Source: Calditerrivibrio sp. (GTDB lineage: Bacteria; Chrysiogenota; Deferribacteres; Deferribacterales; Calditerrivibrionaceae). Taken from it: a stretch of 64,000 nt of DNA. Location: the NCBI GenBank assembly GCA_026415135.1, contig JAOAHS010000002.1:1-64000 (forward strand), written 5' to 3'. Below the pieces are notes generated by a model. It was not told the origin of the DNA. It ran no database searches and saw only the letters and a list, made by a program, of their open reading frames with translations. A program made the translations under genes and the position numbers. Below, one piece after another: positions 14,547 through 58,341 of this stretch. Within the stretch, counting starts at the first letter, position 1; the number at the start of each line of letters is the position of its first letter.

Positions 14547-14622
14547 TGGCTGGGGCGGGAGGATTCGAACCCCCGAATGGCGGGACCAAAACCCGCTGCC
14601 TTACCAGCTTGGCGACACCCCA
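14547..14622 (-). tRNA. tRNA-Gln (anticodon TTG)
   Basis: On the minus strand, acceptor strands TGGGGTG and CGCCCCA pair over seven positions (one G-T) followed by discriminator G and an encoded CCA at 14547-14549. The anticodon loop TTTTGGT gives TTG, reading CAA. It lies 5 bp downstream of tRNA-Phe and abuts the convergent hypF stop codon, so there is no room for a hairpin terminator. Confidence 0.95.
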
Positions 14623-14627
14623 ATGAA

Positions 14628-14703
14628 TGGTGCCCAGGGGCGGAATCGAACCACCGACACGCGGATTTTCAGTCCGCTGCTCTGCCGACTGAGCTACCTG
14701 GGC
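14628..14703 (-). tRNA. tRNA-Phe (anticodon GAA)
   Basis: On the minus strand, acceptor strands GCCCAGG and CCTGGGC pair perfectly, followed by A and an encoded CCA (14628-14630). The anticodon loop CTGAAAA gives GAA. It is the first gene of a two-tRNA operon (Phe-Gln) with a TTGACA promoter just upstream. Confidence 0.96.
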
Positions 14704-28866: not shown

Positions 28867-28939
28867 GGGGCTGTAGCTCAGCTGGGAGAGCGCATGAATG
28901 GCATTCATGAGGCCAGGGGTTCGATCCCCCTCAGCTCCA
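28867..28939 (+). tRNA. tRNA-Ala (anticodon GGC)
   Basis: GGGGCTG (28867-28873) pairs with CAGCTCC (28932-28938) with one G-T pair, then discriminator A; no CCA is encoded. The anticodon arm CATGA-ATGGCAT-TCATG gives anticodon GGC, reading GCC and GCU. The last nine bases overlap the stop end of the convergent antiporter gene. Confidence 0.96.
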
Positions 28940-56090: not shown

Positions 56091-57086
56091 CTAAGGTATT
56101 TTTATGCTTCCTTCAGATTTTTTGGGACCGGAAAACGGCCATCTCTGTTCAAGATTTAGCAACAGTCTGTTTGTAGAATTGAGTATTTCATCTGCTTCTT
56201 TTTTTATATGAGTTAGGTTATCGGTGGTTTCAGCTACATTTTTTGTAATCATTTCTGTGTTCTTGATAATAGGTTCTAATTCATTTACCCTCTTGTTTAT
56301 GTCGTTTATAAGTGTGTTAGATTTTTTGATTAAGTTATTTACATCTTTTATCGTTTCTTCCGTTGTTACTACCCTTTGATCAACTTTATCCAATATATTT
56401 GCTACCTTTATGGAGATCTCATTAAGGTTTTTTTGTAGCATCTGGATATCATCAGTTATTTTATGAATTTTGTTATTAAGATCATCGGTTCTTATTAATT
56501 TGCCTAAGGAACCTCTTTTGAGGGTTAAATCATCCCCTACATGTCCCAAGCCCCTCATCAGTTTTGTCAGATCTCCATCTGGGTTTTTCAAATCATCTGT
56601 TATATCCCGTATATTTGCAACGATCTGTTTTGCATCGTCTAATACAGGTTTTGCTTTTTCTATTATCTCTTCCAACCCCTTACTTCTTATCAAGTGAAAT
56701 TTATCCCCATCCTGAATAACTCTACCTTTACCCCCTGAAAATGTTATACTTGTGGCACCCAATATATTTTTAGCTTCTAACTTACATTCGGAATCTATTT
56801 TTATCCATTTAATATAGTCTTTTGGAATTTTTACTGTCATGGTAACCCTACCATCATCTTCAAGATTGATATCCTGAACTCTACTTATCTGAAATCCTGA
56901 AAAAATGACTGGCATTCCATTCGTAAGTCCTTCACCATTTTCGGAATATATCTTAATCTTTACCTTTGGGGTAAGGATTTTTTTGTTAAAGGCAATAAGC
57001 CCAATGACAATTAAAATGGTTAAAACAGCCAATAGTATAAATAGACCAACTTTATACTCTATACCCTTAAATCTTGGGTCAGCCAT
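56091..57086 (-). CDS. mlaD: MlaD-family (MCE domain) protein
   Basis: A 331-residue protein with one N-terminal membrane helix (about 12-32) and an MCE domain (about 38-117: VKIKIYSENGEGLTNGMPVIFSGF, VTMTVKIPKDYIKWI, GATSITFSGG). A long coiled coil follows, with ITDDLKNPDGDLTKLMRG repeats, and the end reads WPFSGPKKSEGS, which I associate with MlaD-like proteins of delta-type bacteria. Such proteins form hexameric lipid-binding rings in the periplasm. Its start lies 28 bp inside the degenerate ATPase gene. Confidence 0.9.
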   Translation of the reverse strand: MADPRFKGIEYKVGLFILLAVLTILIVIGLIAFNKKILTPKVKIKIYSENGEGLTNGMPVIFSGFQISRVQDINLEDDGRVTMTVKIPKDYIKWIKIDSECKLEAKNILGATSITFSGGKGRVIQDGDKFHLIRSKGLEEIIEKAKPVLDDAKQIVANIRDITDDLKNPDGDLTKLMRGLGHVGDDLTLKRGSLGKLIRTDDLNNKIHKITDDIQMLQKNLNEISIKVANILDKVDQRVVTTEETIKDVNNLIKKSNTLINDINKRVNELEPIIKNTEMITKNVAETTDNLTHIKKEADEILNSTNRLLLNLEQRWPFSGPKKSEGSIKIP

Positions 57087-57568
57087 TCATCGTACTCCAA
57101 TTTTATAATATTAGATATTTGTGCATATTTATCGTAGTTCTCATTATAATCTAAAATTGCATAATTTTCATTACATTTTATAAAAAAATCCATTAAATGG
57201 TGTGAGTGTTCAATACCTACATGATCCAAAGGCATTATAAAGAGTATTAACTCAACTGGAAACATAAGCGCTGTAATATATTTTACTAAAAAAATTTCGT
57301 AATTAGAGAGTGTATCTCTCCGGTTATGGATCTTTTCTGATAGATTAAATATATTTAGATAATCTTGTATTGTGCTTATTAATTGTTTTATTTTCATGCC
57401 TTTGTGATAAGACATAGGTAGAGCAATATTTTCTAAAACGGAGAGGTTACCTATTATAGGTAACTGTTTGTAGATGATATAATATTTTAGTTCAATAGCA
57501 TTACAAAGGGAAACTTTTTCAAGGATGTCATCTACATGCTTTATATTTATTTTTACAAATTTTCTCAT
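57059..57568 (-). CDS. Degenerate MlaF-like ABC ATPase remnant (169 aa)
   Basis: This protein sits where the MlaF ATPase should be, overlapping mlaE by 4 bp and mlaD by 28 bp. LPIIGNLSVLENIALPM (about 36-52) matches the region after the Q-loop of MlaF. LSNYE (87-91) stands where LSGGM is expected, and LILFIMPLDHVG (107-118) where Walker B LIMYDEPFTG is. There is no Walker A at all, the catalytic Asp-Glu pair has become Ile-Met, and the H-loop His is missing. It is about 90 residues shorter than an active MlaF. The intact frame and tight coupling argue against a random pseudogene; a structural regulator of MlaE is possible. Confidence 0.65.
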   Translation of the reverse strand: MRKFVKINIKHVDDILEKVSLCNAIELKYYIIYKQLPIIGNLSVLENIALPMSYHKGMKIKQLISTIQDYLNIFNLSEKIHNRRDTLSNYEIFLVKYITALMFPVELILFIMPLDHVGIEHSHHLMDFFIKCNENYAILDYNENYDKYAQISNIIKLEYDEWLTQDLRV

Positions 57569-58341
57569 ATAAATACCCCTGTAATTTCAACAAACATCAA
57601 GCCATAAAAGACCCTCATCATCCCTCTTAGTAATGCTATAGGAACATCTGTAGTGGCTTTACCTACGCCCATTGAGGTATATATAGGTAATGTCATAAGA
57701 ACAAATCCAAACATAACAGTCTTATATATAAAACATAATACATCACTTAGATTGAGCTCATTAAAGATCAGCATGACCATATAATCAAAGGTAATGTTCA
57801 TCTGAAAACTCAAATAAAGATATCCAACGGTTACTGCGGTAAAAGCAAAAAAAACAGCAAGTGAAAACGAGCATACCATACCAGCAAATACTCTGGGTAA
57901 AAAGAGATAACTGTATTCATCTATTCCATGGGTTTTTAAAGCCTTAATCTCCCAGCCGAGCTTCATCATCGATATTTCTGCGCCAACTGCAGTGGCGCTT
58001 CTGAGGGATAATAAAAGTGCTGTTAAAAAAGGTGCTACTTCTCTAATTACTATAACAACAAATACCTTACCTGTCTGATGTTGGGCTCCAATGCTGAAAA
58101 GAAACTTACCCAATATTCCCACAAGTCCCAGACCAAAGATTATGGCAAAGACAATTACTACCCTTAATATCTGTACACCTGTAAAATATATCTGTCTTGT
58201 TGTTACTAAGAAAATAGCAGGATTTAATATTTTAAAGGTTAAAAACTGGGTGACGATTTTATTACAGAATTTAACATAATCTTTTAAGAACTTTGTGCCA
58301 TCTACAAAAAAATTGCCTATACTATATATAAATCTGTTCAT
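57565..58341 (-). CDS. mlaE: MlaE-family phospholipid ABC permease
   Basis: A 258-residue membrane protein with about six helices. REVAPFLTALLLSLRSATAVGAEISMMKLGWEIKALKTHGID is the MlaE-family central region, with RSATAVGAEI in place of the commoner RSGSAIAAEL form; this is where the coupling helix contacts MlaF, so changes here fit the degenerate partner. The ATG overlaps the argJ stop by one base (TAATG). Confidence 0.88.
   Translation of the reverse strand: MNRFIYSIGNFFVDGTKFLKDYVKFCNKIVTQFLTFKILNPAIFLVTTRQIYFTGVQILRVVIVFAIIFGLGLVGILGKFLFSIGAQHQTGKVFVVIVIREVAPFLTALLLSLRSATAVGAEISMMKLGWEIKALKTHGIDEYSYLFLPRVFAGMVCSFSLAVFFAFTAVTVGYLYLSFQMNITFDYMVMLIFNELNLSDVLCFIYKTVMFGFVLMTLPIYTSMGVGKATTDVPIALLRGMMRVFYGLMFVEITGVFI

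Follow-up and report, generated by a model that had tools for sequence, protein, structure and literature searches.

The operon described here, from Calditerrivibrio sp., encodes in the position of the lipid-transport ATPase MlaF a subunit, F', which is an ABC nucleotide-binding domain (NBD) cut down to its RecA-like core and helical subdomain, having neither the ABC-beta subdomain nor the Walker A loop. To judge from its sequence, the operon-encoded F' cannot be an active ATPase. It belongs to an old, compact and well-folded family present in at least four phyla, and is not one lineage's decaying remnant. Its retention in one and the same cluster of four genes suggests that an entire branch of such transporters runs without an ATP motor of its own.

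On the reverse strand of the window, that is, of the whole stretch of 64,000 nucleotides analysed, four genes lie closely packed between 58341 and 55414: mlaE', F', mlaD' and a lipoprotein gene (L). They are flanked by argJ and glnB, as identified from their sequences. The first-pass annotation had described F' as an open frame of 169 codons overlapping both of its neighbours, and this is indeed so, the overlaps being 4 bp with mlaE' and 28 bp with mlaD'. The features of the locus are as follows.

57565 to 58341, reverse strand: mlaE', divergent MlaE-family permease, 258 aa (Pfam MlaE, 3.7e-41)
57059 to 57568, reverse strand: F', pseudo nucleotide-binding subunit in the MlaF slot, 169 aa, ATG start
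56091 to 57086, reverse strand: mlaD', MCE protein, 331 aa (Pfam MlaD, 1.6e-9), MCE domain followed by long helices
55414 to 56079, reverse strand: fourth gene, lipoprotein (L), 221 aa, GTG start, without a Pfam family
57892 to 57990, reverse strand: coupling-helix region of MlaE', residues 118-150, scaffold retained and GTM-VTEQIDAL altered
57398 to 57463, reverse strand: F' residues 36-57 (LPIIGNLSVLENIALPMSYHKG), its best-conserved segment (mean of 2.4 bits, highest of nine segments)
57296 to 57310, reverse strand: degenerate ABC signature of F', LSNYE (canonical LSGGM)
57230 to 57250, reverse strand: former Walker B of F', LILFIMP (canonical IILYDEP), Asp and catalytic Glu gone
56094 to 56141, reverse strand: conserved C-terminal tail of MlaD' (RWPFSGPKKSEGSIKIP)

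Rfam matched nothing in the window but four tRNA genes, at 2-74, 14550-14622, 14631-14703 and 28867-28939.

The pseudo nucleotide-binding subunit

When F' is set against the canonical MlaF of the same genome, the Walker A region proves to be deleted, the Q-loop Gln is replaced, the signature LSGGM has become LSNYE, YDEP of Walker B has become FIMP, and the H-loop has no His. The absence of Walker A, the lost Walker B Asp and Glu, the broken signature and the missing H-loop His had all been read from the F' sequence in the first-pass annotation, and the same-genome comparison bears them out. In an alignment of 60 F' sequences with 18 canonical MlaF sequences, the Walker A Lys, the Q-loop Gln, both signature glycines and the catalytic Glu are found in none of the 60 F'; the Walker B Asp is present in 15 of them and a His at the H-loop column in one. 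All ten motif positions are intact in 18/18 canonical MlaF in this alignment.

A Pfam scan of F' returned nothing meaningful, and its NCBIfam matches, to ABC ATPases, all lie below threshold (best 1.2e-6). Profile-profile comparison aligns F' with the canonical MlaF of relatives (probability 96.6%), and the F' profile also matches ABC NBDs in the PDB (MacB, 5.9e-10). AlphaFold2 models F' with confidence (pLDDT 94.6, pTM 0.89), and in Foldseek the model retrieves ABC NBDs, MlaFB included. Profile, AlphaFold2 and Foldseek results are thus concordant on an ABC NBD fold, though one from which the ABC-beta subdomain is missing. An unrelated fold, considered as an alternative, is ruled out by the profile-profile, PDB profile, AlphaFold2 and Foldseek results. 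The label of "remnant" that F' was first given does not suit a protein so well folded, from a family of such age and spread.

Conservation in F' peaks at residues 36-57, directly after the Q-loop position. In ABC transporters, the part of the NBD that follows the Q-loop contacts the coupling helix of the permease. For MlaE, this helix links TM2 and TM3 and touches MlaF (PMC7790496). By analogy, residues 36-57 of F' are the expected docking face for the coupling helix of its permease. The C-terminal part of F', comprising W162 and its surroundings, lies outside this face and is conserved in Deferribacterota, as might be the case if F' were a regulator or scaffold for a new cytoplasmic partner, such as a lipid-synthesis enzyme, with its permease contact only secondary. 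We regard this as improbable, since F' from other phyla lacks the part around W162 and no partner gene is linked to F' besides mlaE', mlaD' and the lipoprotein gene.

Distribution, selection and partly dead relatives

F' is found in 38 of the 51 genomes of the window's phylum, as orthologues of 162-179 aa that always lie between mlaE' and mlaD', and it is therefore not a chance reading frame; mlaD' is in the same operon at all 38 loci. Families f3, f4 and f10 lack F', as do two of the three f2 genomes and one f6 genome, which is incomplete. Close relatives with a full-length MlaF in this position, which would have pointed to a local loss, were looked for and none was found. The frame is open in 37 of the 38 carriers. 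In G034 (locus L232, G034:C12, 1878-2306; also L020) there is an in-frame TAG near the end of F', leaving 142 codons open, which represents recent damage, a sequencing error or a shortened protein. The copy at L098 (G062:C77) looks disrupted or misassembled: MlaE' there is divided between two frames, and F' runs on into MlaD', some of the sequence being absent.

The family extends well outside this phylum. A scan of named genomes found F' relatives in metagenome-assembled genomes (MAGs) labelled Helicobacter, Pseudomonadota, Deltaproteobacteria, Chlorobiota, Kiritimatiellia and Nitrospirae. With phylum names beyond the window's own taken from such labels, which may be wrong, F' is present in 13 of 298 genomes of Campylobacterota (the phylum of the Helicobacter-labelled MAG), in 10 of 297 genomes of a 'Delta' phylum, one of the ten (G566) having a full-size dead form, and in 21 of 28 genomes of a fourth phylum; confinement to a single phylum is thereby ruled out. 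Outside the window's phylum, F' is mostly 115-145 aa long. Among eight loci from the fourth phylum, the divergent MlaE' is present at all eight and a separate F'-containing frame without Walker A at six, the start-codon rule having listed no F' frame at L233 and L237.

Is F' nevertheless a pseudogene, or a decaying remnant without function? Its short length, the TAG in G034 and the disrupted appearance of L098 could be taken that way, but the open frames in 37/38 carriers, the low omega, the confident compact fold and the retention across phyla make it very improbable indeed. For F', mlaE' and mlaD' the median omega values are 0.105, 0.055 and 0.044, respectively, as approximate pairwise Nei-Gojobori estimates from 28 close, non-independent pairs with dS of 0.15-1.2 in all three genes; overall dN/dS medians, which mix in saturated pairs, were set aside. 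For a genome pair from the window's own genus, dN/dS of F' is 0.085. F' is under purifying selection. The first-pass description of F' as catalytically dead and as an integral part of an MlaE-MlaD operon thus stands, and an omega of about 0.1 contradicts any suggestion that purifying selection is absent. A recent pseudogene or frameshift is ruled out by the open frames, this omega and the deep conservation.

In other groups, mlaE-F-D operons encode a full-size F that shares the motif [LV]-[IV]-S-N. The F proteins of L106/L107 (Nitrospirota) have Walker A and the His, with DDP instead of DEP; that of L213 has DEP and has lost the H-loop His; and those of L210/L211 and L212 have Walker A, with DNP and no His. 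Walker A is present in all of these, L213 included, and on sequence grounds they are possible intermediates that bind ATP without hydrolysing it. In L100, L103 and L215, Walker A is lost and the beta-subdomain present. Because full-size relatives already lack the catalytic Glu or the H-loop His, the comparison suggests that ATP hydrolysis was lost first. The permeases of these full-size relatives belong neither to the stripped clade nor to canonical MlaE; their branches are long and the support that joins them to one another is weak, and for this reason the order of loss is a reading rather than a proof. At L215 (G566:C34, 3711-5335) the full-size dead F is followed by mlaD'; no MlaE adjoins it, and the MlaE copies of G566 are on other contigs.

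The partners of F' and the supply of ATPase

In Pfam the permease matches MlaE and nothing else, and it scores under the TIGR00056 cut-off. An earlier remark that its coupling region departs from the usual sequence is right only in part. The permease retains the scaffold (R, AE, M, E, L, I-D, PR); what it has lost is the canonical GTM-VTEQIDAL, together with the C-terminal GAEGVG-ATT motif. The permeases that accompany a stripped F' in all four phyla form a single clade with 100/100 support, separate from the canonical MlaE of the same genomes. In the small genomes of family f9 (G046/G047; L037, L038), MlaE' is extremely diverged, on a branch of 5.5 changes per site, far beyond the divergence of the F' or MlaD' encoded alongside it.

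MlaD' has one MCE domain by Pfam, after which it is predicted to be mostly helix, with low confidence (monomer model, pLDDT 62.4, usable for helix content only). Its tail follows the pattern WPF...K[LI]P in the window's group and I-[EK]-L-P elsewhere. The window lipoprotein matched no Pfam family; an iterated profile search begun from it reached 33 of 41 tested sequences, itself included, and its homologues span Deferribacterota, Campylobacterota and the 'Delta' group. At the loci compared, the lipoprotein gene overlaps mlaD' mostly by 4 bp.

Could MlaE' be driven by an ATPase from elsewhere? The first-pass annotation had raised this possibility and proposed a search for a solitary MlaF. A search of the window's genome (G000) with an MlaF profile found none; its sole strong MlaF (9.7e-136) lies instead in a complete second operon, mlaE-mlaF-mlaD, on contig C6. 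The second-best match (G000:C62, 3.2e-59), considered as a solitary MlaF, was rejected, being 250 bits weaker and placed beside an unrelated membrane-anchored protein. The canonical MlaD of this genome (L071, 6433-8016) has 527 aa; the long C-terminal region after its helices looks like beta structure and recalls the elongated MlaD of Veillonella (PMC10665443).

Each of the 38 carriers in the phylum encodes a pair of MlaE proteins, one canonical and one divergent, and at least one canonical MlaE is present in 21/21 carriers sampled outside it. The canonical copies that were fetched are nearly all beside an intact MlaF, the exceptions being L114 and L118. G127 has, upstream, an ATPase that carries Walker A. 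Since every carrier examined also has canonical MlaE, nearly always with intact MlaF, driving in trans is possible throughout, yet nothing in the data requires it. The canonical MlaF, or another ABC ATPase, would then energise MlaE', with F' as an adaptor or as one half of an asymmetric F-F' pair. This has a precedent in the mycobacterial Mce permeases, which rely on the ATPase MceG from outside their operon (PMC9947336), but canonical Mla is widespread in these groups in any case, and canonical MlaF already has a permease in its own operon. Moreover, the coupling region and C-terminal motif of MlaE' are unlike those of canonical MlaE, and an F' with the expected docking face would compete with MlaF for one site. 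We consider driving in trans unlikely. As between passive and trans-driven transport, the sequence evidence leans towards passive, because F', with its expected docking face preserved, probably occupies the position that MlaF would have to take.

Passive transport is the basis of the model that we favour, with some confidence, for E'-F'-D'-L: a second MCE lipid-transfer system beside canonical MlaEFD, forming a lipid bridge free of ATP hydrolysis in which F' is a structural clamp. F' would sit under MlaE' as MlaF does under MlaE, gripping the coupling helix through the face NLSVxENIxLPxxYH, as its conservation suggests, and would serve not as a motor but as a structural clamp or a fixed gate. 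MlaE' would open toward the inner membrane, the ring and helical tube of MlaD' would span the periplasm, and the lipoprotein would dock the MlaD' tube at the outer membrane; lipid would flow down its own gradient, the complex hydrolysing no ATP. A broader proposition, that a multi-phylum branch of ABC-type MCE systems has abandoned ATP, with the NBD as a fixed clamp, the MlaE fold as a passive lipid portal and living intermediates of the loss remaining, seems to us evenly balanced between true and false.

Comparison with known systems

ABC permeases are held to require ATP for moving their substrates, and in Mla and MCE lipid transport even the direction is debated. A permease family that occurs in four phyla, next to an intact paralogue in the same cell, and has kept of its motor no more than the apparent docking shell offers a natural test of what ATP hydrolysis does in such transport. 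Published surveys have detected MlaF by profile and synteny (PMC10665443) or have not searched for it directly (PMC7790496). Surveys that use an ATPase profile for MlaF will score operons of the present kind as incomplete, as MlaE and MlaD without MlaF.

No published description of a degenerate or ATPase-free MlaE system was found in the open-access literature searched. In ABC exporters with one degenerate nucleotide site, catalytic residues have been lost and the NBD stays in the complex. Those exporters keep one active site and a full-size NBD, however, whereas here there is no linked active site and a subdomain is missing. With the Mla systems of E. coli (MlaFEDB, PMC7790496) and Veillonella (MlaEFD, PMC10665443) the cluster shares MlaE (PF02405), MlaD (PF02470) and the E-F-D gene set, and with the latter also a long MlaD. 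It differs from them in that F' has neither the nucleotide-binding and catalytic motifs nor the ABC-beta subdomain, the permease belongs to a separate clade, and a lipoprotein gene is added.

The Mpc system of Brucella abortus (MpcEFDA) is similar in being a four-gene operon for an MlaE-type permease, an NBD, a single-MCE protein with helices (331 aa, as in MlaD') and a lipoprotein. In Mpc the helices form a needle that meets the lipoprotein at the outer membrane, and bridging of the envelope has been proposed. The ATPase MpcF is homologous to MlaF and is said to be well conserved, a STAS domain is present in MpcE, and MpcA is a homologue of PqiC (PMC12436622). In contrast, F' has no ATPase motifs where MpcF is intact, and the window lipoprotein has no Pfam match where MpcA is of PqiC type. 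Pqi (PqiABC) and Let (LetAB) are likewise MCE bridges, with no ATPase in their operons, and PqiC is an outer-membrane lipoprotein that contacts the PqiB needle (PMC12436622). The inner-membrane proteins of these systems, PqiA and LetA, are not ABC permeases of MlaE type, however; neither system has a pseudo-NBD, and MlaD' has one MCE domain compared with three in PqiB and seven in LetB. The mycobacterial Mce1 and Mce4 systems (PMC9947336) combine MlaE-family YrbE permeases with an MCE tunnel and have no ATPase (MceG) in the Mce operon, but MceG is intact and shared, and they have no pseudo-NBD subunit.

We conclude that a system of MlaE type in which a pseudo-NBD is obligate represents a variant beyond the described Mpc, Pqi, Let and Mce systems, because the ATPase of Mpc is intact, Pqi and Let have no ABC permease, and Mce has no pseudo-NBD.
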